DNA from: an uncultured Alphaproteobacteria bacterium
GTDB taxonomy: Bacteria; Pseudomonadota; Alphaproteobacteria; Sneathiellales; Sneathiellaceae
Length of the DNA: 56,773 nucleotides
Assembly (NCBI GenBank): GCA_913062525.1
Contig: CAJXWA010000003.1
Coordinates: forward strand, 1 to 56,773
Direction: 5' to 3'
How positions within the stretch are numbered: the first letter of the stretch is position 1; every line of letters begins with the position of its first letter. This document shows, piece after piece, positions 13,845 through 30,269 of the stretch. The notes under the pieces were generated by a model. That model was not told the origin of the DNA, ran no database searches, and saw nothing but the letters and a program-made list of their open reading frames with translations. The position numbers and the translations under genes are program-made.

Positions 13845-13873
13845 GTAAGAGTCCGTCTAACGCGGGCTCTTAC
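13845..13873. terminator. bidirectional hairpin between doxX and dusA
   Basis: GTAAGAGTCC at 13845-13854 pairs with GGGCTCTTAC at 13864-13873 (10 bp, one G-T) around a 9-nt loop. It separates convergent genes and overlaps the dusA stop codon. Confidence 0.5.
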
Positions 13874-14844: not shown

Positions 14845-14949
14845 TTGTACCTCGGCTTTATTCTTAGCCTTGATATAGGAATATGTTTTAAAAACAAAAG
14901 AAAATTTATAGGTTTATTATTCGGTGGCGGTATCCCCCTTGATGAATAC

Positions 14950-14971
14950 AGCCAGTGATGTGGCTTTTTTT
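14950..14971 (+). terminator. orphan intrinsic-terminator-like hairpin on the + strand
   Basis: AGCCA-GTGATG-TGGCT is followed by seven Ts on the + strand. Both flanking genes (dusA and the MFS gene) are on the - strand, so no annotated transcript should end here. It could mark a small RNA or be chance (5-bp stem). Confidence 0.35.
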
Positions 14972-15003
14972 CTATATTTGAATAAGAGGCTATTTCAAGG
15001 AAG

Positions 15004-16266
15004 TTATTCCGCTGGTGCTTGAACCGCCGCCGGTTCGGGAAGCTGTTTTGGCAGCATATAGACAATTAATATGATCAGAGCTGCGGCTGCTGCGAGGATT
15101 TTAAACAGAGTATCAAATCCCCAGTTCTCATAGACGATCGATATTATCGGGAGAGAGGCCGCTAAAACTGAAAAGCTAACCACGTACCTGATGCCATAGA
15201 TACGGGCCCGGTATTTCCCGCTTGCTGTTTTGCCAATCATATAATCATTAATTGGAACTTGGCCAAAGACACCGATCATAAACCCAAATGAGACAATAAG
15301 CGCTAATCCGTCGGTTAGTCCCGATATGATAGAGAAGAAGGTCAATTGAATAGCGGCGACCACAAGGAAAATTCTTCTTGGGCCATATTTATCGAGAGAC
15401 TTACCGACGACGAGCTGCGCCATAGAGGCAACGGCAAAGGTTATAAATGCCAATAACCCCACAATAGTTGCCACATTACCGTCCCCGGTGCCCAGCACGT
15501 TTGCCATCGTATTTGTAATGTTGATGGCGAGATTTTGCATGCGCTCGTCAAAAATCTTTGGCAGTGCAAATGTTGTGGCTTGGAAGATGATTGAGGAGAC
15601 AGCTGTGGTCATAAAAACAATTATCGAGATTCTGATCAACAGCGCCTTGTAGGAATATGCCTCTTGAGAAGTCTGTACAGGTACGCTTGGCTCCGTATTT
15701 GTGGACGTTTGCGTAATGCTTTCCCATCGCATCGCCACGTATACTAGGCCAAGGCCGATAGATATGACGCCTGGAACTACAAAAGCTAATTTCCAGCCAC
15801 CGTTGTCAATAAAGAAACCTGTAGTCAAGGCAGCTGAAGCAACACCGAGATTGCCCCAAACACCAACAGTGGCAATACGCATGCCGGTGTCTCGCCATCT
15901 GGTAGTGACAATGGCCAAGCCAACAGGATGATAGATTGCGGCAAACATTCCAATGGCGAATAATCCAATACCCATTTGAAGCGGCGTTTCAGAAAAACTG
16001 GTGCCAATTGATGCTAAGCCTATGCCCACGAAGAAAACACCTATCATGCCATCGCGGCTCCATTTGTCGGCAAGCCAACCTGCGGGTAAAGAAAACAGTC
16101 CAAAAGCAAAGAAACCCGGTGTTGCGTAAATCAGTAGTTCGGCATAACTCACACCCCAGTCGCGATACAGCGTCAACGCTGCCACGGTTGCGAAGATGAG
16201 AGTTAGGAAATGATCGAGAAAGTGACCGAAGCTCAGCATTAGAAAGTACAATTTATCTCGGCTCAT
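15004..16266 (-). CDS. major facilitator superfamily transporter
   Basis: 420 residues with about 12 membrane segments. The N-terminal FGHFLDHFLTLIFATVAALT, the loop PAGWLADKWSRDGMIG between TM2 and TM3 and the motif IYHPVGLAI resemble the fosmidomycin-resistance-like/YHPVG branch of MFS. The substrate cannot be told from sequence. The C-terminal tail is short and Ala/Pro-rich. It is divergent from an AraC-type regulator; two dyads in the shared 150-bp region suggest that regulator controls it. Confidence 0.88.
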   Translation of the reverse strand: MSRDKLYFLMLSFGHFLDHFLTLIFATVAALTLYRDWGVSYAELLIYATPGFFAFGLFSLPAGWLADKWSRDGMIGVFFVGIGLASIGTSFSETPLQMGIGLFAIGMFAAIYHPVGLAIVTTRWRDTGMRIATVGVWGNLGVASAALTTGFFIDNGGWKLAFVVPGVISIGLGLVYVAMRWESITQTSTNTEPSVPVQTSQEAYSYKALLIRISIIVFMTTAVSSIIFQATTFALPKIFDERMQNLAINITNTMANVLGTGDGNVATIVGLLAFITFAVASMAQLVVGKSLDKYGPRRIFLVVAAIQLTFFSIISGLTDGLALIVSFGFMIGVFGQVPINDYMIGKTASGKYRARIYGIRYVVSFSVLAASLPIISIVYENWGFDTLFKILAAAAALIILIVYMLPKQLPEPAAVQAPAE

Positions 16267-16289
16267 TTTCGCAATCCTAATATATCGAA

Positions 16290-16316
16290 CTCATGTAGTC
16301 CAAAATTGTACATGAG
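16290..16316. promoter_or_regulatory. 8-bp inverted repeat upstream of the MFS gene
   Basis: CTCATGTA (16290-16297) and its perfect complement TACATGAG (16309-16316) are spaced by 11 bp, 23 bp upstream of the MFS start codon. This is a plausible binding site for a dimeric regulator, possibly the adjacent AraC protein. Confidence 0.5.
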
Positions 16317-16368
16317 AGTGATCTTTTATAAATTGAGTGTAGTTTTGACTGTAAATCGATGTCATGCC

Positions 16369-16395
16369 AATATATGTCTAGAAACAGACAATATT
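16369..16395. promoter_or_regulatory. interrupted palindrome near the AraC-type gene promoter
   Basis: AATAT-a-TGTCT, six bases, then AGACA-ATATT makes a 10-bp dyad with one bulged A, 23 bp before the regulator's start. A TTGACT hexamer at 16345-16350 with an AT-rich -10-like stretch near 16369 would place the dyad over the promoter or early transcript. Confidence 0.4.
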
Positions 16396-16417
16396 TCAGA
16401 AAATAGAGCTTTTGGAT

Positions 16418-17200
16418 ATGATCGATAGAGATCTGCGCAGCACAAATGCACTGGATTATCAGGACTTGCCTCAGTTAATGGGCGTGATGCCCAAAGACTT
16501 TTCTGATGGATACGTAATCGCGTGGCACAAACATGATAGGGACCAGTTGTTGTATGCAATCAGTGGCATAATGAGATTGGAGACAAAAGAGGAAGCGTGG
16601 ATTGTCCCCCATAATTATGCCTTATATATACCTGCGGGTACGGATCATCAGGTGCGAATGCATGGTACTGTTCAGATGCGAACTTTATACATCAACGGTG
16701 GCAGGGCGCTAAATAGATCTAGAGGATTGGGAGTATTTTCTGTTTCAAACCTTTTGCGTGAACTTATCTTAGCATTAAGTGATGAGCCTATTCAGTATGA
16801 TCCAGATAGTAGAGCGGGATTAATCGCAAGAATTATAGAACTTGAGATCGAACTTTCGCGTGAGATTTCTCTAAATATACCTTTACCTGAAGATCTGCGC
16901 CTTCAAAAATTATGCGCTGAATTGTTAAAGGATCCATCGGATCGACGCACTCTTTATGAATGGTCGGATACGGCAGGGGCATCCCCGCGAACATTAGCCC
17001 GACTATTTAAAAGTGAACTTGGGATGAGTTTTAATCAATGGCGGCAACGAATTCGGTTTCACGGGGCGCTAGAGGGACTGAACAGAGGCGAGAAAATCTC
17101 AAAGATCGCAGGAGACCATGGTTACCAAAGTGCCAGTGCTTTTGCGTATGCTTTCAAAAAAGTAATGGGGAAAACACCATCTGAAGTCTCGACGAACTAA
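16418..17200 (+). CDS. AraC-family regulator with cupin sensor domain
   Basis: 260 residues from ATG 16418 (a TTG two codons earlier is less likely). The N-terminal cupin-like ligand domain has AWHKHDRDQLLYAISGIMRL and the strand IPAGTDHQVRMHG. The C-terminal AraC DNA-binding domain has two helix-turn-helix motifs: GASPRTLARLFKSELGMSFN and KISKIAGDHGYQSASAFAYA, ending in FKKVMGKTPSEV. Divergent from the MFS transporter, which it probably controls. The inducer is unknown. Confidence 0.92.
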   Translation: MIDRDLRSTNALDYQDLPQLMGVMPKDFSDGYVIAWHKHDRDQLLYAISGIMRLETKEEAWIVPHNYALYIPAGTDHQVRMHGTVQMRTLYINGGRALNRSRGLGVFSVSNLLRELILALSDEPIQYDPDSRAGLIARIIELEIELSREISLNIPLPEDLRLQKLCAELLKDPSDRRTLYEWSDTAGASPRTLARLFKSELGMSFNQWRQRIRFHGALEGLNRGEKISKIAGDHGYQSASAFAYAFKKVMGKTPSEVSTN

Positions 17201-17406
17201 CGAATATTCAACGTCGAGTTCGAGTGGCGGAGTGATGTTAAGTAAAGTCGAAAATACTTTGTGGTGTGCTAGTTTTTAACCCTGTTTCCGAACTAATTTA
17301 AAATCTATGTCCGCAGACCTATGGCAAGTGGCTGGGATATAGTGTAAAATGTCGCCAGTTAAGGGATAGATCAAAGTTTAGGCGCTTAAAGTTTCTGGGA
17401 GGAACG

Positions 17407-18609
17407 ATGTCGCTTGAAATTTCTTTTTCGCCATTGTTGGTAACAGCGTCTTTTGCAATTGCAATTACGGCGGCGTTTACGGCATTGCGGATGACGTCAA
17501 ATTTACGCAGCATGTCAATTTCTCAGAAGAAGAAGCGTGTGGCGCAAGGGGCATTTGCCTTGGGGGGCGGTATTTGGTCCATGCATTTCGTTGGCATGCT
17601 GGCCGTGGATATGCCTTTTGCAATCGCCTATGCACCTCTGCCTACATTAGGTTCAGCCCTTATAGCAATTTTGGTGACCGGGGCTGCATTGCTCTCTTTA
17701 CATTTTGGCGTTCGAAATAAAATGCGCATTGCCATATCCGGTGTAATTACTGGAATTGGCATTGTTGGTATGCATTATTTGGGAATGAGTGCCATATCCG
17801 CAAACTGCATTGTGACATACGATCCGGTAGGGTTAGTCGTTGCTGTTGCCATTGGAATAGCCGCATCAATCGCCGCCATGGAACTTGCTTACGGACAACG
17901 AACTCTCGCGTCAGCAATTGCAGGGGCAGTCGTCCTCGGCTTAGCAATCTCGGCAATGCATTATTCAGCTATGTATTTCACCATATTCAGCATTAATAGT
18001 GATATCTCTGTCACGCCAAGCCCGTTGATGAGTAAAGATACGCTCGCGCTAATCGTCGCTTTATCCTCATTTGTAATTTGTGGTCTGTTTTTATTATCAG
18101 CAGTTCCGAGTGATAGTTTTAGAGCTGACGCTTCAGATGTACCAGATGATGACGTTGACACTGATATTGTAACTGAACCCGTTCAAATGAATGCGATCTC
18201 AAACACCGCTATCGCTAAACCGGCGCCGTCTGCGACGTTGTCTCGTGCAATGTCAAAGCGCCCAGCCGACACAAATGACGAGAGAATTCCATACGATCGA
18301 GATAAAACTATCCGCTTCTTAGCGCCCTCCGCCATTTTCATGGCGCAAGCCGATGGGCATTACACCAAGCTTCATAATGGTGAAGAGGAACTATTCTGCC
18401 CTTGGCCGATTTCCCGGTTGGAGAAAAAATTGAGTGCGAACATGTTTGTTCGAACCCATAGAAGTTTTATCGTTAATCATCAAAAAATTAGCGGACTGCG
18501 GCGTGATGGTGACAAAGCCTATTGCGTCGTTGGTGATGGCGGAAATCTGGAGGCCCCAGTGAGCCGCGGCCGCATGACAGAACTTCGGAATATATTGAAA
18601 ATAGACTAA
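17407..18609 (+). CDS. coxC: MHYT-LytTR membrane sensor/regulator (CoxC-like)
   Basis: 400 residues with SD GGAGGA. The N-terminal half has about seven membrane helices holding three MHYT-type motifs: MHFVGM at residue 59, MHYLGM at 122 and MHYSAM at 184. These Met/His residues are thought to bind a metal and sense a diatomic gas or redox state. After a linker, a LytTR DNA-binding domain occupies about residues 296-398 (MAQADGHYTKLHNGEEEL and FVRTHRSFIVNHQKISGL). The same domain pair occurs in CoxC and CoxH of Oligotropha carboxidovorans, and this gene lies directly upstream of coxM, so it is the likely regulator of the cluster. Regulation by CO is inference. Confidence 0.88.
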   Translation: MSLEISFSPLLVTASFAIAITAAFTALRMTSNLRSMSISQKKKRVAQGAFALGGGIWSMHFVGMLAVDMPFAIAYAPLPTLGSALIAILVTGAALLSLHFGVRNKMRIAISGVITGIGIVGMHYLGMSAISANCIVTYDPVGLVVAVAIGIAASIAAMELAYGQRTLASAIAGAVVLGLAISAMHYSAMYFTIFSINSDISVTPSPLMSKDTLALIVALSSFVICGLFLLSAVPSDSFRADASDVPDDDVDTDIVTEPVQMNAISNTAIAKPAPSATLSRAMSKRPADTNDERIPYDRDKTIRFLAPSAIFMAQADGHYTKLHNGEEELFCPWPISRLEKKLSANMFVRTHRSFIVNHQKISGLRRDGDKAYCVVGDGGNLEAPVSRGRMTELRNILKID

Positions 18610-18612
18610 TTT

Positions 18613-18641
18613 GCACGAAATGCCGGATCTGCATTTCGTGC
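18613..18641 (+). terminator. perfect 11-bp hairpin between coxC and coxM
   Basis: GCACGAAATGC at 18613-18623 and its exact complement at 18631-18641 enclose a 7-nt loop, 4 bp after the coxC stop. There is no T-run, so it may act as a Rho-assisted terminator, an attenuator or an mRNA 3'-end barrier. A near-copy of the arm (ATTCGTGAAATG) follows around 18653. Confidence 0.45.
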
Positions 18642-18789
18642 AGATCAAACGTAATTCGTGAAATGTTGACGTCTCCGGTGAACGGGGCTTCGTCATCTCT
18701 TGAGCTATGTCTCACTCTTCCTGCAAGCGGCGACCAAACGCCATGGGCACAACGCCCAATTCTTAAACTTGCTAGGGAGGAGCGACATA

Positions 18790-19653
18790 ATGATTCCAGG
18801 ATCGTTTGATTATCATCGCCCACAATCCGTGTCAGAGGCCGTAGGCTTACTGAAGGATAAAGGGGATGAAGCATTCATTGTTGCAGGCGGACACAGCCTG
18901 ATACCAATGATGAAGTTACGGATGTCAACACCAGAACATCTCATCGATATTCAAGATATCGCTGAAATTAAAAATATTTCCATATTTGGTAGTGATGTGA
19001 CAATTGGGGCGTTTGTTACGCAAGCGGAAATTATTTCATCAGAAGCCTTGCACGGGATTTGTCCTGTATTGCGTGAGGCATCATTGCAAATCGCTGACCC
19101 ACAGATCCGGAATGTGGGAACCATTGGGGGAAATGTTGCAAATGGTGATCCTGGCAATGATATGCCGGCCATTATGCAAGCCTTAGATGCGACCTTCGTG
19201 TTGGCTGGTGAAGAGGGAACGCGCGAAGTGAAGGCTCGCGATTTTTATGAAGCTGCATATTTCACAGCCCGCGCTGAAACGGAAATGCTGACATTAATCA
19301 AGTTCACTGCACCCGCCGCCGGGCATGGCAGTTGTTATATGAAACAAAAACGGAAAATTGGTGACTATGCAACGGCTGCCGCCGTCGTGATTTTGACCAT
19401 GAACGGGACGACAGTTCAAAATGTGGAAATTGCGCTGACGAACGTCGCTGACACTCCCCTTTATGCGGAAGAAGCTAACCGTTTGCTGATTGGAACGTCA
19501 TTGGATGATGCATCCATTAAAGCGGCAGTTGAAGCTGCGAAGGCAATCACAGATCCCGCTGATGATGGTCGGGGTCCAAAGGATTTCCGAACTCACATCG
19601 CAGGTGTGATGGTTGAGCGGGCAATTCGCCAAGCCGCGACCACAGCAAGTTAA
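18790..19653 (+). CDS. coxM: CO dehydrogenase medium (FAD) subunit
   Basis: 287 residues from ATG 18790, chosen for its strong SD (GGGAGGAG) and start MIPGSFDYHRPQSV; the 30 codons upstream do not resemble the family. FAD-binding motifs AGGHSLIPMMKLR and TIGGNVANGDPGND are both intact. The subunit takes electrons from the [2Fe-2S] centres of CoxS and passes them to the respiratory quinone pool. First structural gene; the order M-S-L is that of form I clusters (form II is S-L-M). coxS begins 18 bp after its stop. Confidence 0.95.
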   Translation: MIPGSFDYHRPQSVSEAVGLLKDKGDEAFIVAGGHSLIPMMKLRMSTPEHLIDIQDIAEIKNISIFGSDVTIGAFVTQAEIISSEALHGICPVLREASLQIADPQIRNVGTIGGNVANGDPGNDMPAIMQALDATFVLAGEEGTREVKARDFYEAAYFTARAETEMLTLIKFTAPAAGHGSCYMKQKRKIGDYATAAAVVILTMNGTTVQNVEIALTNVADTPLYAEEANRLLIGTSLDDASIKAAVEAAKAITDPADDGRGPKDFRTHIAGVMVERAIRQAATTAS

Positions 19654-19671
19654 TTATTGTCGGAGAGAACA

Positions 19672-20163
19672 ATGTCAAAAATGAACGTAAAAATGACGGT
19701 CAACGGCAAAGAAATTGAAAGTTTGTCAGAGCCGCGCACACTCCTCATTCATTTCCTTAGGGAAGATCACAAACTTAAAGGGCCCCATATCGGCTGTGAT
19801 ACGGGCCACTGCGGTGCGTGTACAGTTGATCTGGATGGAAAATCCGTAAAATCCTGCATGACCTTTGTTGGGCAGGCCAACGGCGCAAACGTAACGACCA
19901 TTGAAGGGATCGCAAACCCAGATGGAACGCTACATGTCTTGCAAGAAGCCTTTAAAGAACATCACGGACTTCAGTGTGGTTTCTGCACACCGGGAATGAT
20001 CACACGAGCTTACCGCCTGTTACAGGAAAACCCATCACCGACAGAAAAAGAAATCCGCTACGGCATTTCTGGAAATTTATGTCGCTGCACGGGTTATCAA
20101 AATATCGTTAAGGCCATCTCCATGGCTGCTCAAACGCTCAATACACAGGAGGCAGCGGAATAA
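19672..20163 (+). CDS. coxS: CO dehydrogenase small [2Fe-2S] subunit
   Basis: 163 residues from ATG 19672 (SD GGAGAG). The plant-type ferredoxin cluster ligands are in [16 protein letters not shown] with the following SCMTF cysteine. The second cluster domain has [10 protein letters not shown] and [13 protein letters not shown]. All eight cysteines expected for the two [2Fe-2S] clusters are visible. It relays electrons from the Mo-Cu site in CoxL to FAD in CoxM. The stop is separated by one base from the coxL start, so translational coupling is likely. Confidence 0.97.
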
Positions 20164-20164
20164 A

Positions 20165-22588
20165 ATGAATGAACAAACTCCTATTTCCCGCGAAGAGCGG
20201 ATTAAAAACCTGAAAGGCATTGGGTCTGCTCGTAAGCGTGTGGAAGATGCACGGTTTACACAAGGTGCGGGTAACTATGTCGATGATATTAATCTGCCGG
20301 GTATGTTGTTCGGTGATTTCGTTCGCTCGTCCCATAGTCACGCTCGCATCATCAGTATCGATAAAGAAGCTGCATTAGCAGTTCCGGGTGTTATTGCTAT
20401 TTTGACTGCGGAAGATCTAAAACCGCTTAATTTGCACTATATGCCAACCCTTGCAGGTGATGTCCAAGCTGTATTGGCTGATGAAAAAGTATTATTCCAA
20501 AATCAGGAAATCGCCTTTGTTATCGCGGAAGATCGGTATATTGCGGCAGACGCAGTAGAACTTGTTGAAGTCGAATATGAAGAATTGCCACCGATTACAG
20601 ATGCCTTCAAAGCAATGGATGATGACGCGCCAGTGCTTCGTGAAGATATCCAAGATAAAATGGAAGGGGCGCACGGCCCCCGCAAACACAAAAATCATAT
20701 TTTCTTATGGGAACAAGGCGATAAAGAAGGATCAGAGAAAGCCCTTGCCGACGCTGATGTTGTTGTTGAAGAATTGATCACCTATCAACGGGTTCATCCT
20801 TGCCCGCTTGAGACCTGTGGGTGTGTGGCTTCAATGGATAAGATCAATGGTAAGTTGACCTTATATGGAACGTTCCAAGCCCCACATGCTGTACGGACTG
20901 TGGCCTCTTTAATCACTAATATCGCAGAACATAATATTCGGGTTGTCTCTCCTGATATTGGCGGCGGATTTGGAAACAAGGTTGGTGTTTATCCCGGCTA
21001 TATCTGTGCAACTGTGGCCTCAATCGTAACAGGGGTTCCGGTTAAATGGGTTGAAGATCGTATTGAAAATCTGACATCAACTGCCTTTGCTCGCGACTAC
21101 CATATGACCGGTAAAATCGCTGCGACGAAAGAGGGGAAGATTACGGGCCTCTGGTGTCATGTTTTAGCCGACCACGGCGCGTTTGATGCTTGCGCTGATC
21201 CAACTAAATTCCCAGCAGGGTTTTTCAACATTGTAACGGGGTCGTATGACATTCCAGTTGCCTATGTTGGGGTAGATGGTGTGTATACCAACAAGGCACC
21301 GGGTGGCGTCGCATATCGGTGCTCCTTCCGGGTAACAGAAGCAGCTTACTTGATTGAGCGAATGATCGAGATTCTGGCTCAAAAACTGAATATGGATCCA
21401 GTTGAACTTCGCCTTAAAAACTTCATTAAGAAAGAACAATTCCCGTATCAGTCTGCATTGGGCTGGGAGTATGACAGTGGTGATTATCATACGGCCATGG
21501 AAAAAGGCATGGCAGCCGTTGATTATCCAGCGTTACGTGCAGAGCAAGCAGAGAAAAGGGCTGCATTCGATCGCGGCGAAACGCGAACATTGATGGGAAT
21601 TGGAACAGCATTTTTCACAGAGATTGTAGGCGCTGGGCCTGTTAAAAATTGCGATATTTTGGGTCTTGGTATGTTTGATAGTTGCGAAATCCGCATCCAT
21701 CCAACAGGGTCTGCAATTGCGCGCTTGGGGACAATCAGTCAGGGGCAAGGTCACGCAACAACATTTGCGCAGATCGTTGCGACCGAAATTGGTATTCCAG
21801 CAGAAGATATTACACTCGAAGAAGGTGACACAGATACAGCGCCATATGGTCTTGGGACTTATGGGTCGCGGTCAACTCCGGTTGCTGGTGCTGCAACAGC
21901 AATGGCGGGGCGTAAAATCCGTGCCAAAGCTCAAATGATTGCAGCATATCTACTTGAGGTTCATGAAGGGGATCTAGAGTGGGATGTGGATCGTTTCCAG
22001 ATTAAAGGAAACCCAGAAGCCCATAAAACCATGAAAGAGATCGCTTTTGCCTCATACAATCAGGCAATCCCTGGATTAGAGCCGGGTCTAGAAGCTGTTT
22101 CATACTATGATCCACCGAACATGACTTATCCATATGGCGCATACTTCTGCGTACTGGATATTGATGTGGATACGGGTGTTGTGGATGTTCGCCGGTTCTA
22201 TGCCCTTGATGATTGCGGAACCCGAATTAATCCGATGATCATTGAAGGGCAGGTCCACGGCGGTCTTACAGAAGCACTTGCCATCGCAATGGGTCAAGAG
22301 ATTACCTATGATGAAATGGGGAATGTCAAAGGTGGCAGTTTGATGGATTTCTATCTTCCAACCGCGGTGGAAACACCTGTGTGGGAGACAGATGAAACTG
22401 TCGTCCCATCACCCCATCATCCTATTGGCGCCAAAGGTGTTGGCGAGAGTCCTAATGTTGGTGGTGTTCCGGCTTTCTCCAATGCGGTTAATGATGCATT
22501 TGCGCATAAGGGTCTGACCCATACGCAAATGCCACATGATCATTGGCGTGTATGGAAAACAGCTGAAAAACTCGGCTTATCAGGGTAG
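20165..22588 (+). CDS. coxL: form I CO dehydrogenase large (Mo-Cu) subunit
   Basis: 807 residues, matching the family (about 809 in Oligotropha). The active-site loop reads AYRCSFR at residues 383-389, with Cys386 as the copper ligand; this motif separates true, form I CO dehydrogenases from form II relatives (AYRGAGR). The catalytic glutamate lies in GAKGVGESPNVGG (Glu761). Other molybdenum-hydroxylase motifs seen are GGGFGNKVGVYPG and SQGQGHATTFAQIVA. The enzyme oxidises CO with water to CO2, two protons and two electrons, at the inner face of the cytoplasmic membrane. It starts one base after coxS. No damage is visible. Confidence 0.97.
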   Translation: MNEQTPISREERIKNLKGIGSARKRVEDARFTQGAGNYVDDINLPGMLFGDFVRSSHSHARIISIDKEAALAVPGVIAILTAEDLKPLNLHYMPTLAGDVQAVLADEKVLFQNQEIAFVIAEDRYIAADAVELVEVEYEELPPITDAFKAMDDDAPVLREDIQDKMEGAHGPRKHKNHIFLWEQGDKEGSEKALADADVVVEELITYQRVHPCPLETCGCVASMDKINGKLTLYGTFQAPHAVRTVASLITNIAEHNIRVVSPDIGGGFGNKVGVYPGYICATVASIVTGVPVKWVEDRIENLTSTAFARDYHMTGKIAATKEGKITGLWCHVLADHGAFDACADPTKFPAGFFNIVTGSYDIPVAYVGVDGVYTNKAPGGVAYRCSFRVTEAAYLIERMIEILAQKLNMDPVELRLKNFIKKEQFPYQSALGWEYDSGDYHTAMEKGMAAVDYPALRAEQAEKRAAFDRGETRTLMGIGTAFFTEIVGAGPVKNCDILGLGMFDSCEIRIHPTGSAIARLGTISQGQGHATTFAQIVATEIGIPAEDITLEEGDTDTAPYGLGTYGSRSTPVAGAATAMAGRKIRAKAQMIAAYLLEVHEGDLEWDVDRFQIKGNPEAHKTMKEIAFASYNQAIPGLEPGLEAVSYYDPPNMTYPYGAYFCVLDIDVDTGVVDVRRFYALDDCGTRINPMIIEGQVHGGLTEALAIAMGQEITYDEMGNVKGGSLMDFYLPTAVETPVWETDETVVPSPHHPIGAKGVGESPNVGGVPAFSNAVNDAFAHKGLTHTQMPHDHWRVWKTAEKLGLSG

Positions 22589-22596
22589 TGGTTCAA

Positions 22597-22627
22597 TGCA
22601 GGTATCATCGAAATGGTGATATCTGCA
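22597..22627 (+). other. 11-bp hairpin between coxL and coxD
   Basis: TGCAGGTATCA at 22597-22607 pairs with TGATATCTGCA at 22617-22627 (one G-T pair) in the 55-bp gap between coxL and coxD. It lacks a T-run. Such a structure could protect the coxMSL message end or lower expression of the accessory genes. Confidence 0.45.
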
Positions 22628-22643
22628 CGACTACATATATTAA

Positions 22644-23522
22644 ATGAAAATTTCTATCGATATAAAAAAACGGCTTCGTTCTGCTGATTATGTTGCAGAT
22701 GATGCTTTGGCAACCGCGCTACAGTTAGCTCTTGATCTTGGGCGCCCGTTATTGCTTGAAGGTGCGGCTGGGGTTGGTAAAACCGAAGTAGCTAAGGCGT
22801 TAGCAAATGCGGTTGAGACTAATTTAATCCGGCTTCAATGTTATGAAGGTTTAGATGCGTCTGCTGCGATTTATGAATGGAATTATCAGCGGCAACTGTT
22901 GTCCATCAAAGCATCGGAACATGAACAGAAAAGTTCAAGAGAAATTGAAGATTATATATTCTCGGAAGATTTTTTGCTGGAACGTCCATTGTTAAAGGCC
23001 ATACGGCAAGAAAAATCGCCTGTCTTACTTATTGATGAGATAGATAGAGCAGATGAAGAATTCGAAGCATATCTACTGGAAATTCTTTCTGACTTTCAAG
23101 TGACGGTGCCGGAACTTGGAACGTTGGAAGCGGTATCCATTCCTCATGTTATTTTAACATCTAACGGGACGCGGGAACTCTCAGATGCGCTTCGCCGCCG
23201 CTGTTTATATTTCTATGTCGATTTTCCAAATCTTGAACGGGAAGTGGAAATCATCACCAGAAGGGTTCCTGATATCGAAGCCAATATGGCCGAAGAAATT
23301 TCCAGATTTGTGCAGGAACTGCGAAAAGAAGATTTAGAGAAAACACCGGGAGTAGCTGAAACTTTGGATTGGGCGGCCGCGTTGGTTGGCTTGAAAATCA
23401 AAAGCCTGACGGGAGATCTGGAGACAATACAGTCAACACTCATTTGCTTATTGAAAACTGAAACGGATCTTCGCTCCATCACTCCGGAAGTTGCAAGTCG
23501 TCTTGCAGGCAAGGCAGCTTAG
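22644..23522 (+). CDS. coxD: MoxR-type AAA+ ATPase for CO dehydrogenase maturation
   Basis: 292 residues. Walker A GAAGVGKT is at residues 40-47 and Walker B is in PVLLIDEIDRADEEFEAYLL; the sensor pattern ILTSNGTRELSDALRRRC follows. In Oligotropha, CoxD is needed to insert sulfur and copper into the active site of CoxL. It pairs with the VWA protein CoxE, whose start lies one base after the coxD stop; MoxR/VWA pairs act together as chaperones for metal-centre assembly. No strong SD precedes the ATG at 22644. Confidence 0.93.
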   Translation: MKISIDIKKRLRSADYVADDALATALQLALDLGRPLLLEGAAGVGKTEVAKALANAVETNLIRLQCYEGLDASAAIYEWNYQRQLLSIKASEHEQKSSREIEDYIFSEDFLLERPLLKAIRQEKSPVLLIDEIDRADEEFEAYLLEILSDFQVTVPELGTLEAVSIPHVILTSNGTRELSDALRRRCLYFYVDFPNLEREVEIITRRVPDIEANMAEEISRFVQELRKEDLEKTPGVAETLDWAAALVGLKIKSLTGDLETIQSTLICLLKTETDLRSITPEVASRLAGKAA

Positions 23523-23523
23523 T

Positions 23524-24723
23524 ATGGCAGCAGCGGTGACAAGTGCAAACCAGCCAATAAATGGGTATCCGCTCACCCGGCAGATGGCCAAATTTATCGA
23601 TCACTTACGACTGAACAATTTTGTGCTTGGAGCGCAGGAAACGACCTTGGCTTTACAAGTGGTGAGGGGGGCATTTCTAGATGACAAAAAATGTCAGCAC
23701 CAACTAAAATCACTGTTAACTGGATGTGTGGAGGAATGGCGGTTATTTGACGACTTATATGAGGCCTATTGGTACAGCAGCGGAAAAGAACGTCATCAAT
23801 GGTCGTCTGCTAAATCGTTTGAAAATCGAACGAAAGCCTCTTTGCCGAAAGCCTGGGATCAACATTTTTCAAAAAATAAAGGGTCCAATAATACGGGACC
23901 TCAAGTCGAAGCTGAAGGCGAAGGCGATGCCGAAGGATCTGCATCAGGCCGCCTGATCGCCACAGATAAATCGGCCATGGCAAAAACAGATCTGCGGCAA
24001 TTCGTTGATCCAAATGAAATTCTACAAGCCGAACTACTTGCTTATCGTTTGGCAAGTGCAATGCGTTACCGGTTATCGAGGCGGTATAGATTATCAAGGC
24101 TGGGTCGAAAGTTGGATCTGCGAAAAACGATCCGGCGAAGTCTTGGGACTGGCGGGGAACCGTTTGAACTTTGCCGTCGCCGGCGCCCGGACCGTCCAAT
24201 TCGTTTGGTGGTGTTTTTGGATATCTCAGGATCTATGAAGCATTATAGCCGGTTTTTCCTGCAATTTGTTAAAGGATTAGTGTGCCGTTGGATGGAGGCG
24301 GACGCCTATTTGTTCCACACCAAACTGATCCGCGTGACAGATGTGGTTCGCGAAAAGAACACCACCAAAGCCATGACACGCCTTTCTGTTATGGCTGAAG
24401 GATTTGGCGGCGGGACAAAACTTGGCGAGAGCTTGAAACAATTCAATGATCAATATGCCAAGACCCATCTGAACAGCCGAACAGTAGTGATGATTCTAAG
24501 CGATGGATATGACACTGGAACGCCAGAGCAACTGGCAGCAGAACTAAAAAAACTTCGGAAAAGGGCGCCAAAATTGATTTGGTTGAACCCATTGCTTGGA
24601 TGGGAGAATTACGAGCCGATTACAAGCGCTATGGCAGCAGCAAGGCCGTTCATCTCATATTTTGCCGCGGCAAATACGCTGGAAGCCTTGAGTGCGATCG
24701 AGCCGGAAATTGCAAAATTATGA
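23524..24723 (+). CDS. coxE: VWA-domain protein CoxE
   Basis: 399 residues from ATG 23524. The C-terminal half is a von Willebrand A domain with the MIDAS motif D233-I-S-G-S (VVFLDISGSMKHYS), a Thr-containing loop GGGTKLGESL and a later VMILSDGYDTGTPEQL. The N-terminal half is a helical, Arg-rich domain (RYRLSRRYRLSRLGRKLDLR). CoxE works with the AAA+ ATPase CoxD in maturation of CO dehydrogenase; the biochemical detail is inferred from the family. A 16-bp gap precedes coxF. Confidence 0.93.
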   Translation: MAAAVTSANQPINGYPLTRQMAKFIDHLRLNNFVLGAQETTLALQVVRGAFLDDKKCQHQLKSLLTGCVEEWRLFDDLYEAYWYSSGKERHQWSSAKSFENRTKASLPKAWDQHFSKNKGSNNTGPQVEAEGEGDAEGSASGRLIATDKSAMAKTDLRQFVDPNEILQAELLAYRLASAMRYRLSRRYRLSRLGRKLDLRKTIRRSLGTGGEPFELCRRRRPDRPIRLVVFLDISGSMKHYSRFFLQFVKGLVCRWMEADAYLFHTKLIRVTDVVREKNTTKAMTRLSVMAEGFGGGTKLGESLKQFNDQYAKTHLNSRTVVMILSDGYDTGTPEQLAAELKKLRKRAPKLIWLNPLLGWENYEPITSAMAAARPFISYFAAANTLEALSAIEPEIAKL

Positions 24724-24739
24724 ATGAGGGAATGGCATA

Positions 24740-25582
24740 ATGGTTACCTCTAGAAAAACACTAGATCTCATCGAGAAACTCCGCAGTGATGGGAAGAGTT
24801 TCTGTATCGCGACAATTTTGCACACTGCTGACAGCACTTCGGCCCGGGCAGGGGCGAAAGCTGTCGTCACCATCGAGGGAGATCTACATGGGTTTGTTGG
24901 TGGTGGCTGCGTTACAGGATCTGTCCGCCGGGCAGCGCTTCACGCTATGCACACGGGTGAGCCGGAAATGATACGGGTGAAACCTAAAGACATGGTTGTT
25001 GCCAGCACCGATATTGATGGCGTTAAGTTGCACAAGTCCAGTTGCCCAAGCGGCGGAACGGTTGATGTATTTTTGGAGCCAATGAAAGCGGCTCGAACGC
25101 TTGTGATTTGCGGAGCCTCCCCAATTGCGCAATCCATATTGGCCGTGGCGTCTTCATTGGACGCAGATGTTGTGGTGGCGGCTCTTTTGGAAGATCACGA
25201 TAAGATGCCGGGGGCTGCACTTTACTTGGATGGATTTGATCTTGGGGAGCTTGAACTTCAAAATCAAGATGCGGTCGTCGTGGCAACGCAAGGGAAGAGG
25301 GACCGCGATGCATTGCGATCAATGATGGGATCAAACGCTGGATATAAAGGCATGGTTTGTAGCCGCAAAAAACTTGCGAAATTGAAAGAGGCTTTGCTTG
25401 TCGAAAATGGATCTCTCAAACCAACCTTCGATGCATTATATGCACCGGCTGGCCTAGATATTGGGGCGATCGAGCCAGAAGAAATTGGTCTTGCCGTTGT
25501 GAGTGAAATAGTGGCTCATCGGCGCCAAACAGTCTCAGTAAAAGGCAACGTGGACGCAGATAAAGAGATGGTTGCTAGTTGA
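24740..25582 (+). CDS. coxF: XdhC-family molybdenum cofactor chaperone (CoxF)
   Basis: 280 residues. The N-terminal XdhC/CoxI domain has HGFVGGGCVTGSVRRAAL; the C-terminal Rossmann-like XdhC domain has TLVICGASPIAQSILAVAS and VVATQGKRDRDALRSMMGS. It ends with the family signature DIGAIEPEEIGLAVVSEIVA. XdhC proteins bind molybdenum cofactor, protect its sulfurated form and hand it to the target enzyme, here CoxL. The stop (TGA) is one base before the ATG of the MobA-like gene, so the two are probably translationally coupled. Confidence 0.9.
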   Translation: MVTSRKTLDLIEKLRSDGKSFCIATILHTADSTSARAGAKAVVTIEGDLHGFVGGGCVTGSVRRAALHAMHTGEPEMIRVKPKDMVVASTDIDGVKLHKSSCPSGGTVDVFLEPMKAARTLVICGASPIAQSILAVASSLDADVVVAALLEDHDKMPGAALYLDGFDLGELELQNQDAVVVATQGKRDRDALRSMMGSNAGYKGMVCSRKKLAKLKEALLVENGSLKPTFDALYAPAGLDIGAIEPEEIGLAVVSEIVAHRRQTVSVKGNVDADKEMVAS

Positions 25583-25583
25583 T

Positions 25584-26216
25584 ATGACGCAACGCAGTGC
25601 GAAAATAGACATTATTCTACTAGCAGCGGGTAATTCCTCGCGAATGGGCTCTGAGAATAAATTACTGATGAGGCATGGTCGTAGTACATTGATTCGGCAC
25701 ACTGCCCAACAAATTATAAATGCAAAAATTGGAGATTTAGCCGTAGTAACCGGCTTCGAAGCGGATCAGGTGCAAAGAGAACTCCAAGGATTGAACCTTA
25801 AATTTTGCCATAATTTTGATCACGACACAGGTCAGATGTCATCGGTCAAAGCGGGAAGCCAAGTAATTGACCCTATGGCAAAAGGGATGATGGTGGCGCT
25901 ATCCGATATGCCTTATTTGAAGCCAATGGATTACCGAAACATAGTCCGTCATTTTTTTGCCAATGGGGGGCAGAAAATAACAGTCCCATTTTATGGCGAA
26001 GAACGAGGAAATCCGATTGTGATCCCAGCGGCTTTGATTTCGGAAATCGCATGTGGATCGCTCAACGCGGGTTGCCGGAAACTCGTGCAAGATCATCCAA
26101 ATAAAATCGTTCAAGTGAAATTTGAAAATTCGGCCTATGTCTCCGATATTGATACGCCAGCGGACTATGTCAATTGTATGAAATATGGGGCAACCCCCTC
26201 AGCCATTTGTTGTTAA
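25584..26216 (+). CDS. MobA/MocA-like nucleotidyltransferase, probable molybdopterin cytidylyltransferase
   Basis: 210 residues from ATG 25584. The N-terminal nucleotide-binding loop is ILLAAGNSSRMGSENKLL, the form with LAAG that is usual in MocA/CTP enzymes (MobA typically has LAGG). Further motifs are VALSDMPYLKP (metal/nucleotide Asp) and GEERGNPIVIPAAL. CO dehydrogenase uses molybdopterin cytosine dinucleotide, so a CTP-dependent activity fits the context well; specificity is inferred, not shown. It sits between coxF and coxG in the operon. Confidence 0.88.
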   Translation: MTQRSAKIDIILLAAGNSSRMGSENKLLMRHGRSTLIRHTAQQIINAKIGDLAVVTGFEADQVQRELQGLNLKFCHNFDHDTGQMSSVKAGSQVIDPMAKGMMVALSDMPYLKPMDYRNIVRHFFANGGQKITVPFYGEERGNPIVIPAALISEIACGSLNAGCRKLVQDHPNKIVQVKFENSAYVSDIDTPADYVNCMKYGATPSAICC

Positions 26217-26232
26217 ACTAAGGAAATGCGTT

Positions 26233-26838
26233 TTGAATTTAAATGATCAACAGACTATCAATGCCTCAAAAGAACAAGTGTTCGCCGGACTTAATGATGC
26301 GGATATTTTGCGCCAGTGTATACCAGGTTGCCAAGTGCTTGAAAAAACATCTGACACTGAAATGTCTGCCACGGTGGTTTTAAAGGTTGGACCAGTGAAA
26401 GCCAAATTTGCGGGAAATGTTACGCTATCAAATCTTAATCCCCCTGAAAGTTATACCATCACCGGCGAGGGTAAGGGCGGCGCAGCCGGTTTTGCAAAAG
26501 GCGGTGCTGACATAACGCTTCATTCGGAGGCAGATGGCACAACCACTTTAAAATATGCGGTTAAGGTGAGTTTGGGCGGTAAGATCGCTCAACTAGGCGG
26601 CAGGCTTATGGAATCTACTTCCCGCAAGTTGGCGAACCAGTTTTTCGAAAAATTTGCTGAACTTGTTGAGCCAGCTGAAGGGACAGTTCCTGACGCTGAA
26701 CCTGAAATAGCCGTAGCGGAAATCCCAGTGTCAGACGCTGGAAGCGAACAAACTAATGCTTCACCTGCGAACCATACGCTTATCATAGTGCTGGCCGTCA
26801 TCGGTGTTGTTGCTGTGACGTGGTATTTTGCATCCTAG
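26233..26838 (+). CDS. coxG: CoxG, SRPBCC-fold membrane-anchor protein
   Basis: 201 residues if translation starts at TTG 26233, which has a well-placed AAGGAAA 7 nt upstream. This gives the family-like start LNLNDQQTINASKEQVFAGL. The alternative ATG at 26185 overlaps the previous gene by 32 bp and adds 16 unlike residues. The SRPBCC fold shows in DADILRQCIPGCQVLEK and GPVKAKFAGNVTLSNL. A Pro/Glu-rich linker and one C-terminal membrane helix (LIIVLAVIGVVAVTWYFAS) follow. CoxG helps anchor CO dehydrogenase to the cytoplasmic membrane. It is the last gene of the cox cluster. Confidence 0.88.
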   Translation: MNLNDQQTINASKEQVFAGLNDADILRQCIPGCQVLEKTSDTEMSATVVLKVGPVKAKFAGNVTLSNLNPPESYTITGEGKGGAAGFAKGGADITLHSEADGTTTLKYAVKVSLGGKIAQLGGRLMESTSRKLANQFFEKFAELVEPAEGTVPDAEPEIAVAEIPVSDAGSEQTNASPANHTLIIVLAVIGVVAVTWYFAS

Positions 26839-26850
26839 TTTTTTAAAATA

Positions 26851-26893
26851 ATCACAGTTTAAAAGAAGCATATGGCTTCATTTAAACTGTGAT
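26851..26893. terminator. long bidirectional hairpin at the end of the cox cluster
   Basis: An 18-bp dyad with a single A-A mismatch (ATCACAGTTTAAA/TTTAAACTGTGAT outer arms, GAAGC/GCTTC inner arms, 5-nt loop) lies between the convergent coxG and dienelactone hydrolase genes. It probably terminates transcription in both directions. Confidence 0.7.
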
Positions 26894-26903
26894 AAATTGG
26901 GCC

Positions 26904-27599
26904 TTAATCCTTTAAAGCGGTTTCGAAGGCATCCATAGTGCGTTTTCGGGCTAGTTTGGTGTTAGCTGCATCATAGTGCGTACCATTGTGCCGCGCGAAT
27001 GCGTGATCCATATGGGGGTAGCTATGGATTGTGATATTCGAATTTTCGTGCAAGCCCAGCTTTATTTGGCTCTGTATTTCATTGGGAACAAATTGATCTT
27101 GCTCTGCTATATGGAGCAGCGTTGGGGTTCGAATATTTCCGGCTTCGCCTAATTTCTTCTCAATTCCAACGCCGTAATAACCAACATTACAATCAGAATC
27201 TGTGCGACTAGCCATGAGATATGCCAGTAAACCGCCGAGACAAAAGCCCATGCTTCCCACTTTTCCGGTGCAGCCTTGTACTGTCCGTAGATAGGTGAGG
27301 GAAATTTGAAGATCTTCAACAGCTTTATCAGCGTCAAAGGAGTAGTAGAGTTGCCCTGCTTTTTCCCATTCGGCTTTACTTTTGTCAGTTAGCTGGACGC
27401 CCGCTTCTTGTCGCCAATATAAATCAGGACAAAGGGCAAAATAACCTTCGGCAGCCATTGCATCACAATGATCTCTCATGTCTTGATTGATGCCAAAGAT
27501 TTCCTGGATCACCAGAATACCAGGACCTTTTTCATTTTTCGGAATAGCGAGATAGGCAGTAAAAGTCCCATCTGGGCTAGTTATAGTAACTTCTGGCAT
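26904..27599 (-). CDS. dienelactone hydrolase family protein
   Basis: 231 residues, alpha/beta-hydrolase fold. The nucleophile is in GSMGFCLGGLLAYL (Cys, as in true dienelactone hydrolases rather than Ser). The acid is in AEQDQFVPNE and the histidine in YPHMDHAFARH. The family opens lactone rings in aromatic degradation, but many members act on other esters, and no other aromatic-degradation gene is nearby. Divergent from a TetR regulator that probably represses it. Confidence 0.9.
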   Translation of the reverse strand: MPEVTITSPDGTFTAYLAIPKNEKGPGILVIQEIFGINQDMRDHCDAMAAEGYFALCPDLYWRQEAGVQLTDKSKAEWEKAGQLYYSFDADKAVEDLQISLTYLRTVQGCTGKVGSMGFCLGGLLAYLMASRTDSDCNVGYYGVGIEKKLGEAGNIRTPTLLHIAEQDQFVPNEIQSQIKLGLHENSNITIHSYPHMDHAFARHNGTHYDAANTKLARKRTMDAFETALKD

Positions 27600-27629
27600 T
27601 GTGGTTTACTTTCTGATAAATAAATTTGT

Positions 27630-27637
27630 ACGATCGT
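27630..27637. promoter_or_regulatory. candidate TetR operator core
   Basis: ACGATCGT, a perfect 8-bp palindrome, lies in the 97-bp divergent region between the hydrolase and TetR genes, inside GTACGATCGTTCGAT. Position and symmetry suit a TetR dimer site. Confidence 0.4.
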
Positions 27638-27696
27638 TCGATTTTATTTTTGAATTTTTAATTGAAAAAGGCAAGCGAAAATTATAGATTTTAAAA

Positions 27697-28332
27697 ATGA
27701 CAGAAAAAACTGAACAAAAACAAAAAGATGGCCGACGATTGAGAGGTGATAACACCCGTGCGTTAACTGTCTCCCACGCCCTGCAGATGGCCTCGATTGA
27801 TGGTTTAGAAGGACTTTCCATCGCCAAATTGGCAACGGCACTCGGTACAGCGAAAAGTACTGTTCACGCAGCCTTTGGATCTAAAGAAACACTTCAAGTT
27901 GCCGTAATCGACGAAACTACTCGCCTCCTTTTTAAACTGGTTGTTAGTCCTTCGTTGAAGGCAGATTCCGGAATGGCCCGACTTGTGGCTGTTGGTGATG
28001 CGTGGATGAGCTATCTGGAAAGTGACATTTTTGAAGGCGGGTGCGTTCTCTCATCTGCATCTTTGGAAATGGATGGGAGATCGGGCGCAGCCCGCGATGC
28101 GATCGCTAAGGCCATGACAGATTGGATGAATACACTTAGCCGGTTTGTGGCAGATGCAATTTCCAACGGTGAAATAGCTGAAACACATGAACCTGAACAG
28201 CTAGCTTTTGAGTTAAATGCAATTGGCATGGCCGCTAACTGGCATCACCAATTACTTGGTGGAGAGGAAACCTTCCATATGGCTCGTTTATCATGGAAGA
28301 AAACACTTGAAAGTCATAAACGTCAAAATTGA
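27697..28332 (+). CDS. TetR-family transcriptional regulator
   Basis: 211 residues. The N-terminal helix-turn-helix is GLEGLSIAKLATALGTAKST followed by VHAAFGSKETL. The C-terminal region is an all-helical ligand domain with SDIFEGGCVLSSASLEMDGR, similar to TetR_C domains of YfiR/AcrR-like regulators. It is divergent from the dienelactone hydrolase gene. The 239 bp between this gene and metG contain T- and A-runs and a weak GTCGGT/ACCGAC repeat but no gene that I can support. Confidence 0.92.
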   Translation: MTEKTEQKQKDGRRLRGDNTRALTVSHALQMASIDGLEGLSIAKLATALGTAKSTVHAAFGSKETLQVAVIDETTRLLFKLVVSPSLKADSGMARLVAVGDAWMSYLESDIFEGGCVLSSASLEMDGRSGAARDAIAKAMTDWMNTLSRFVADAISNGEIAETHEPEQLAFELNAIGMAANWHHQLLGGEETFHMARLSWKKTLESHKRQN

Positions 28333-28571
28333 TGGAGACTGAGATTTGATTATAAGAGCGGTGATTTTTTTGATTTTTGGAGAGAAAAAAACTGTAGCAC
28401 TGGCAGATAATGTGATCACGATCCCCGATTAATAGTAACTGAAAGTCGGTATAACGCTCTGTCTAAATTCAAAACCGACGCGTGGCATAAAAGAAATTTT
28501 GCGCCGGTATGGATAATCCTGTAAAAGAGCTGAAAACAACTCATATGTTCGATTTTCGGCAGGATAAATAG

Positions 28572-30269
28572 ATGACACGACACCTTATTACTTCGGCACT
28601 ACCCTATATTAACGGCGTTAAGCATTTGGGTAACCTCGTCGGGTCCATGTTGCCGTCTGATCTATATGCCAGATATCTGCGGGCTAATGACCAAGACGTG
28701 TTGTTTATTTGTGCAACTGACGAACACGGTACACCAGCCGAGCTTGCCGCTAGAGCTGCCAACCTTGATGTTGCGACATTTTGTGCAGAACAGCATGACG
28801 TTCAGGCGAAACTTGGGGAAGCTTTCTCGCTTTCGTTTGATTATTTCGGACGTTCGTCTTCTCCGCAAAATCACGAGCTAACTCAGCATTTTGGTGAAAA
28901 ACTGCTCGAAAATGGATTTATTGAAGAAAGAGTGACTAAGCAAATTTTCTCGATCGAAGATGATCGCTTTTTGCCAGATCGGTATGTGGAGGGGACTTGC
29001 CCGCATTGTAATTATGACAAGGCACGCGGGGACCAGTGCGAAAGTTGTACCCGTCTTTTAGACCCAACTGATTTGATAGAACCGCGTTCCGCTATTTCGG
29101 GAAGCACAAATCTGGAAGTCCGCGAAAGCAAACATTTGTTTTTGTTGCAGTCAAAGTTGTCTGATGAAATTCGCGAATGGGTTGGCAAGCACCCGGATTG
29201 GCCACTGCTCGTGTCTTCAATCGCCCTTAAATGGCTAGATGAAGGTTTGCATGACCGCGGGATCACACGTGATTTGAAGTGGGGTGTCCCCGTTGGCCGC
29301 GAAGGCATGGAAGACAAAGTTTATTACGTGTGGTTTGATGCCCCTATTGGATATATCGCAGCAACAAAAGAATGGGCTGATGAAGATCCTGAAAACCGGG
29401 ATTGGAAGTCATGGTGGTATGAAGCCGATGACGTTCGTTACACAGAGTTTATGGCGAAAGACAATATCCCTTTCCATACAGTAACCTTCCCTGGCACCCA
29501 AATTGGTAGTCGCGAGCCTTGGAAAATGGTTGACTATATTAAGGGTTTTAACTGGTTAAATTATTATGGCGGGAAGTTTTCCACTAGTCAGCAACGCGGC
29601 ATTTTCATGACTGACGCCATTGAGATGCTTCCAGCGGACTATTGGCGCTACTATTTGCTTGCCAATGCGCCTGAAAGTTCAGATGCGAGTTTTACTTGGG
29701 AAGGGTTCTCGGGAACTGTGAACAAGGACCTTGCTGACACACTTGGAAATTTCGTAAATCGGATCTTAAAATTCTGTTCCGCAAAGTTTGGAGATGCACT
29801 TCCTGAAGGCGGTGAAATCGGGGCGAGAGAAATTGCTCTCGCAGAGGTGATGCAGGCGCGCATTGCGACCTATAATAAACACATGGAAGAATTGCAGATC
29901 CGCAAAGCCATGCAGGAGCTTCGGGCCATTTGGGTAATGGGCAATGAATATTTAACAGAAGCCGCCCCCTGGACCGCCTTTAAGACAGATCCAGATGCCG
30001 CAGCCGTTAGCTTGCGGTTTGCCATCAACATGATCCGTGTTTTTGCGGTCTTAAGTGCCCCAGTTATCCCAACAGCCAGCCAGACTTTGGCCTCAGCTCT
30101 TGGATTGCAATTGAACGAGCGGGACTGGATTAAAAAACCTGTGTTAGATGAATTGCAAGTGTTGCCAGCAGGCCATGAGTTTACGATCCCGGATGTCTTG
30201 TTCCGTAAAATCAGCGATGAAGAAGTTGCAGGGTGGCAGGAAAAATTTGGCGGATTAGAAGGCGAATAA
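28572..30269 (+). CDS. metG: methionyl-tRNA synthetase
   Basis: Charges tRNA-Met with methionine. 565 residues, class I synthetase. HLGN begins at residue 18 (HIGH motif) and KFSTS at residues 335-339 (KMSKS motif variant, common in one MetRS branch). A zinc knuckle [17 protein letters not shown] is intact. The anticodon-binding helical domain occupies the C-terminal third. There is no C-terminal tRNA-binding (EMAP-like) extension. SD AGGA lies before ATG 28572. Unrelated in role to its neighbours. Confidence 0.96.

Follow-up and report, generated by a model that had tools for sequence, protein, structure and literature searches.

A complete form I aerobic carbon monoxide dehydrogenase cluster in a Sneathiellaceae genome, with a conserved repeat proposed as the CoxC operator upstream of coxMSL

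Introduction

The cox genes of Afipia (Oligotropha) carboxidovorans OM5 lie on plasmid pHCG3 in the order coxC-M-S-L-D-E-F-G. In the passages of PMC11347149 available to us, A. carboxidovorans CoxC is described as a carbon monoxide (CO)-responsive, copper-dependent repressor of the coxB promoter, which binds three TTNNNGCN repeats and releases DNA once CO meets its copper-dependent MHYT domain. Repression is explained there by overlap of the site with the -35 box, and the related RcoM1 is reported to bind TTCNNGCA. In this study, we analyzed a stretch of 56,773 nucleotides from an uncultured Sneathiellaceae bacterium (the window; contig CAJXWA010000003.1), which carries a form I aerobic CO dehydrogenase cluster in the same order and orientation as OM5 and, between its coxC and coxM genes, a repeat that we propose as a candidate operator of CoxC. 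The available passages of PMC11347149 name coxM twice and contain no PcoxM, those of the OM5 genome paper on coxC and on repeats (PMC3091675) mention no such site, and no published description of a repeat site between coxC and coxM was found in the literature searched.

Form I CO dehydrogenases make heterotrophs a CO sink in the ocean, according to the available part of PMC13203968. CO oxidation was predicted for unplaced Sneathiellales metagenome bins in the passages at hand of PMC9802188, and our literature search found no paper whose title joins Sneathiella and carbon monoxide. The window adds a form I-bearing genome to the genus, which is taken as Sneathiella.

A form I CO dehydrogenase cluster preceded by coxC

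The form I CO dehydrogenase cluster in the window is real, complete and of an ordinary kind, and we read it, with a probability of about 0.88, as an operon under a local CO switch. A first-pass annotation of the sequence had read the cluster correctly as to its kind, and had placed it at 18790-26838 in the order coxM-S-L-D-E-F, a MobA-like gene and coxG. The genes, which are all on the + strand, their coordinates and their order were borne out. The start was moved; the unit opens further upstream, at 17407, with coxC, a gene which had been missed and which sits directly upstream of coxM. The genes are as follows.

17407..18609, + strand: coxC, regulator of 400 amino acids with an MHYT sensor (Pfam MHYT, 109 bits) and a LytTR DNA-binding domain (Pfam LytTR, 67.3 bits)
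18790..19653, + strand: coxM, flavin adenine dinucleotide (FAD) subunit, ATG start; the mechanical open reading frame (ORF) opens earlier, at 18700
19672..20163, + strand: coxS, [2Fe-2S] subunit, from the first in-frame ATG; the ORF opens with TTG at 19657
20165..22588, + strand: coxL, form I molybdenum-copper (Mo-Cu) large subunit, by model score, motif and tree
22644..23522, + strand: coxD, AAA ATPase, by domain search and Walker A motif
23524..24723, + strand: coxE, VWA (CoxE) protein (Pfam VWA_CoxE, 202.4 bits), with ATG 23524 as the likely start
24740..25582, + strand: coxF, XdhC/CoxI-type protein, by domain search
25584..26216, + strand: mocA-like nucleotidyltransferase gene, from the first in-frame ATG; the ORF opens with TTG at 25572
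26185..26838, + strand: coxG, with a hydrophobic C-terminal tail (Pfam COXG, 128.7 bits); start position unsure

Short motifs accompany these assignments: eight cysteines in CoxS, Walker A in CoxD, DxSGS in CoxE, and AGGHS and TIGGN in CoxM. The label "MobA-like" was given up, as the protein reached only 34.3 bits with the MobA model TIGR02665 (cut-off 151.85). Its best family was TIGR03310, at 134.1 bits and below the curated cut-off of 186.45, and we call the gene MocA-like. In the available part of PMC13203968, an ocean-genome survey, MocA was the sole consistent one of seven candidate COGs in bins of CO oxidisers, across seven species clusters.

For comparison we used named loci, the best 80 of 216 from one genome scan. 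At the sensitivity of a single tblastn query, coxD, coxE and coxF were all present in 63 of the 65 loci with at least 5 kb after coxL. Among the same 65, F-MocA-G was found in 17, F-G without MocA seen in 25, MocA only in 1 and neither in 22. The gene order of the window is therefore not rare.

The assignment of CoxL to form I rests on several agreeing lines. Residues 383-389 read AYRCSFR with Cys386, and GVGES starts at 758 with Glu761; the motif, Cys386 and Glu761 are where the first-pass annotation had reported them. AYxCSFR is the form I criterion in the accessible text of PMC13203968. CoxL scored 1454.6 bits with the CO dehydrogenase model TIGR02416, exceeding the cut-off of 991.15 by 463 bits, and 1427.8 bits with the solved O. 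carboxidovorans CoxL. Of the 56 rows in a FastTree phylogeny, six were of form II, and the others came from 46 of the 80 named loci, the window, OM5 and two genomes of the genus (G022 and G020). The program flagged L110, a form II row, as a long branch. A single branch with support of 100 separated the 50 rows with the form I motif ([AS]YRCSFR) from the 6 with the form II motif, and the window CoxL grouped with that of A. carboxidovorans, apart from form II and hence from the two form II copies of its own genome. The tree had been proposed as a check on the form I call, and the grouping with form II that would have spoken against the call was not seen; motif, family score, M-S-L order and tree all agree.

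The regulator has the domain structure of CoxC: a C-terminal LytTR domain joined to an MHYT domain at the N-terminus, which contains three MH motifs. OM5 CoxC has three MH motifs as well, and their positions are similar: 59, 122 and 184 in the window, 57, 118 and 180 in A. carboxidovorans. The two proteins are 32.3% identical. Among the named loci whose sequence reaches 4.2 kb or more upstream of the coxL start, 48 of 60 have an MHYT-LytTR gene before coxM. Judged by these features, the product of 17407-18609 is likely a CO-sensing regulator and CoxC homologue. The regulator and the well-supported candidate operator described below add to what had been annotated.

The window and OM5 also differ. 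The window has the MocA-like gene between F and G. In OM5, a gene annotated as a transporter lies upstream of coxC, further MHYT and XdhC-family genes lie downstream, and fructose-bisphosphatase and phosphoribulokinase genes are next door, whereas no ribulose-1,5-bisphosphate carboxylase/oxygenase (RuBisCO) was found in the genome of the window.

As far as roles can be predicted from homology and general background, CoxMSL would use a Mo-Cu centre, held by Cys386, to oxidise CO to CO2, and the electrons would pass from molybdenum through [2Fe-2S] and FAD towards the respiratory chain. CoxD, CoxE and CoxF would assemble the Mo-Cu centre, the MocA-like protein would make the cytidine form of the molybdenum cofactor, and CoxG would tether the enzyme to the membrane. 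CoxC, as a membrane MHYT-LytTR protein, would occupy two, perhaps three, repeats spaced by 20 bp before coxM, and would repress coxMSL until CO arrives at its copper-binding sensor.

A conserved repeat between coxC and coxM

The spacer between coxC and coxM of the window contains the following elements.

18612..18623, - strand: inverted copy of the 12-bp repeat (TGCACGAAATGC), which can pair with the first direct copy
18631..18642, + strand: candidate CoxC operator repeat 1 (GCATTTCGTGCA), with an exact core at 18635-18642; the sole + strand copy of the 12-mer in the window
18655..18662, + strand: candidate CoxC operator repeat 2 (TTCGTGAA), one mismatch, 20 bp after repeat 1
18675..18682, + strand: possible degenerate repeat 3 (CCGGTGAA), weak, noted by eye and included in no test, 20 bp after repeat 2

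A stray copy of the core with one mismatch was found at 18718. Between the AraC-type gene and coxC, no core copy was found within two mismatches. The core, TTCGTGCA, fits the RcoM1 consensus quoted in the available passages of PMC11347149. Compared with the three direct repeats published for CoxC, about two helical turns apart and near a cox promoter, one repeat of the window fits TTNNNGC and one reads TTNNNGA, 20 bp apart, and the third is weak.

Conservation was examined in 57 coxC-coxM spacers (55 of the 80 named loci, G022 and the window), selected by a CoxC match and a spacer shorter than 800 bp. The motif was derived from side-by-side reading of these spacers, so the counts in this set are not blind. 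The core was exact in 42 of the 57, compared with a mean of 0.27 and a maximum of 2 in 200 draws of a Markov control. Exact copies numbered 50 in the forward and 2 in the reverse direction, and their density on the + strand was 5.05 per kb in the spacers, compared with 0.023 per kb elsewhere in these loci. When core pairs lay less than 70 bp apart, the spacing was 20 or 21 bp in 33 of 37 cases. With up to one mismatch, 54 of the 57 spacers contained the core (control mean 6.1, maximum 12, 60 draws) and 33 contained two or more copies (control 0.37, maximum 3). The repeat is also present in L001 and L011, the two loci whose spacers are longer.

Plasmid loci were examined after the motif had been fixed. 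Besides OM5, nine plasmid regions were chosen among the matches listed (25 of 101 records). All seven held-out loci with annotated coxC-coxM neighbours contained the core with at most one mismatch, four of them exactly, where chance per spacer was 0.036-0.134 and 0-0.014, respectively; some of these loci are related to members of the discovery set, and two (L154 and L155) are close to each other. The first copy lay 6 to 41 bases past the coxC stop. A. carboxidovorans also has an exact TTCGTGCA after coxC, and the unannotated R. jaguaris locus has a one-mismatch copy before coxM. In pHCG3 (stretch L144, 3233-3280) the exact motif lies between coxC and coxM, with weaker repeats noted by eye at +20 and +40 bp.

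In 24 genomes of the genus, some of them incomplete, the pattern TTCGTGNA-N12/13-TTCGTGNA occurred four times, three of them after coxC. It lies between coxC and coxM in G000 and G022; in G020 it follows coxC, and the last bases of the contig open coxM. The fourth occurrence is elsewhere in G010, a genome without form I coxL over the cut-off. G016, the fourth cox genome, has a repeat variant that escapes the paired pattern.

The link to coxC was also examined in 13 loci in which coxM has no coxC beside it and 2.3 kb or more of its upstream sequence was at hand. Eleven of them have no exact copy up to a distance of 300 bp from coxM; two of these, L041 and L063, have a single one-mismatch copy each. 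The other two, L027 and L064, have an exact copy with a second one 20 bp away, and their genomes encode CoxC elsewhere (44 and 43% identity). The whole-genome search for CoxC, also made after the motif had been fixed, covered 7 of the 13 genomes; it gave no match in L028, L048, L062, L063 and L067, which have no exact repeat within 300 bp of coxM. The genomes of L048, L062, L063 and L067 are probably partial, because their names suggest single-cell genomes. A lone exact core copy about 1 kb upstream of the distant coxC of Roseovarius 217 lies inside another ORF and was taken as chance.

Taken as a candidate operator, (C)GCATTTCGTGCA, which follows coxC as one to three copies with a period of about 20-21 bp, is probably the general site by which CoxC, a copper-dependent CO sensor, controls coxMSL in Alphaproteobacteria.

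A CoxC-like gene with repeats was also seen in a fetched stretch that contains no cox gene. On a plasmid of S. meliloti AK83 (L158, 3983-5494), a CoxC-like gene is followed by repeats and then by an EAL-domain gene. The first three repeats, one of them exact and two with one mismatch, are spaced by 21 and 19 bp; a fourth copy, again with one mismatch, lies beyond. This arrangement is possibly a leftover or a re-used switch.

Repression, activation or another spacer element

Several observations weigh against a CO switch of this kind. The published triplet, three TTNNNGC with a spacing of 18-23 bp, was found 0 times in the two spacers that flank coxC, and of the repeats in the window the second is TTNNNGA and the third is weak. 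A promoter scan of the coxC-coxM spacer found none, the lone weak sigma-70 match lying inside coxC, and no overlap with a -35 box was seen in the window. CoxC shares only 32% identity with the studied protein. L009, L015 and L019 have no core copy even at one mismatch (3 of 57 spacers), and the counts overstate independence because the spacers are related sequences. Repeats occur without an adjacent coxC in L027 and L064, and those of S. meliloti AK83 lie with the CoxC-like gene in a region where the 4 kb fetched to either side contain no cox genes. The CO-oxidising activity of the cluster is itself a prediction.

The strongest alternative concerns the direction of control. CoxC might activate coxMSL in this organism rather than repress it, like RcoM1 in Paraburkholderia as presented in the available passages of PMC11347149. 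The lack of a detected -35 overlap and the position of the first repeat, 87-192 bp upstream of the coxM ATG across the 57 spacers, would suit an activator. The single CoxC that has been studied represses, according to the same passages, and we regard activation as possible but doubtful.

It is unlikely that the repeat is another kind of spacer element, such as a hairpin in the RNA or a site bound by some other regulator. In the window, the spacer RNA 18605-18700 folded better than 200 of 200 shuffles (z -4.42), as the inverted copy lets it fold well, and CoxC absence was checked in few genomes, four of the five without a match being probably partial. The strand bias and the period of 20-21 bp are nevertheless general, as in LytTR sites, the repeats of L027 and L064 go with a CoxC elsewhere, and the five genomes without a CoxC match have no exact copy up to 300 bp from coxM. 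A hairpin is not general either, because exact inverted core copies were found in only 2 of the 57 spacers. As a separate observation, the inverted and direct 12-mer copies of the window flank a loop of 7 nucleotides right after the coxC stop.

That the intact cluster acts on another substrate or not on CO, in a form II-like role, is highly improbable: CoxM and CoxS matched best the NCBIfam models of related hydroxylases, all below cut-off, but CoxL stands 463 bits over the CO dehydrogenase cut-off, carries the motif of form I and falls within that form in the tree, and the adjoining regulator is of the CO-responsive type.

CoxC as a local repressor of coxMSL is kept as the preferred reading. 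The more useful result is a sequence signature that, across Alphaproteobacteria, links coxMSL with the MHYT-type CO sensor CoxC and so opens CO-dependent regulation to testing in many strains. If the operator reading is true, A. carboxidovorans would have a second control point besides the published coxB promoter. The site would perhaps be the main control point in loci that, like the window, lack a coxB-type gene directly upstream of coxC. CO-responsive cox clusters could then be told by sequence alone from differently regulated ones, for example those of SAR116.

Genomic place and history of the cluster

The cluster of the window lies between a Dus-family gene (13870-14844) and the methionyl-tRNA synthetase gene metG (28572-30269), surrounded by MFS, AraC-type, dienelactone-hydrolase-family and TetR-family genes. 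The metG regions of eight relatives were compared. In G010, G008, G021 and G022, the Dus-metG interval is 2.9-11.5 kb long and contains no matching ORF of the window. A Dus counterpart was not seen in the other four regions (G018, the nearest relative, G005, G011 and G014), and no ORF of the window matched in about 13 kb upstream of metG there. The Dus-metG interval (window 13870-30269) is thus variable in the genus.

Form I coxL over the cut-off was found in 4 of the 24 genus genomes, a patchy distribution: the genome of the window, G022 (99% complete), G020 (86%) and G016 (56%). G016 corresponds to the named locus L020, Sneathiella sp. NORP203, and its stretch L088 is letter-for-letter a part of L020, which is the ground for taking the genus as Sneathiella. 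The CoxL proteins of these three are 92-93% identical to that of the window, and the four form one clade with support of 95. Gene order is like that of the window as far as it could be read, to MocA in G022 and G020 and to coxD at the contig end in L020. Unlike in the window, no coxG match was found in the stretches taken from G022 and G020. The cluster of G022 is at another chromosomal place, about 116 kb from its metG. A metG tree was made for 21 genomes; G006 and G007 were absent for lack of a match, G009 was excluded as a fragment, and the G016 row was only 38% filled. In this tree, the four form I-bearing genomes fell on both sides of a branch with support of 99.

A mis-binned contig is unlikely, since the relatives compared have counterparts of metG and its right-hand neighbours, and four of eight have counterparts of dusA and its left-hand neighbours. 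Recent transfer from outside the genus was not supported either: the GC content of the cluster (0.468-0.474) is close to that of the flanks (0.453-0.461), and the CoxL proteins form one clade. Vertical descent with loss and relocation fits the data, as does transfer within the genus.

CO use and RuBisCO in the genus

The first-pass annotation had suggested that CO may serve as an energy supplement, and had proposed a search of the genome for RuBisCO and CO uptake by "the isolate" as checks. The term isolate is not supported, as the assembly carrying the window (contig C3) consists of 247 contigs, 3.51 Mb in total, and is 84.84% complete. The RuBisCO search gave 0 matches in this assembly. Such absence is no proof at 84.84% completeness, yet the cox-bearing G022, 99% complete, also lacks it. 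In the genus, 23 of the 24 genomes gave 0 matches, including the other three with form I. The sole match came from G001, a genome without form I coxL over the cut-off; this RuBisCO-family protein is encoded at 3004-4269 of L111. The family of haem-copper oxidase subunit I had four matches in the genome of the window. Use of CO as a supplement to heterotrophy would fit, because no RuBisCO was found and haem-copper oxidase matches were. With no Calvin cycle seen, CO may be an energy supplement, and a CO-supplemented heterotrophic (carboxydovore) lifestyle is plausible.

Form II clusters in the same genome

A search of the genome with the CoxL model gave seven matches, some of them pieces of one gene, and only the CoxL of the window exceeded the cut-off. 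The next two matches, on contigs C29 and C11, carry AYRGAGR, the form II motif. The form II clusters L109 and L110 encode members of the same protein family as the window CoxL; they differ in having AYRGAGR and 33-37% identity to form I CoxL, and the order in L109 is S-L-M. L109 (166-9554, on C29) is a full form II cluster of the order G-S-L-M-D-E with XdhC-like and MocA-like parts, the latter being the C-terminal portion of a protein of 556 amino acids.

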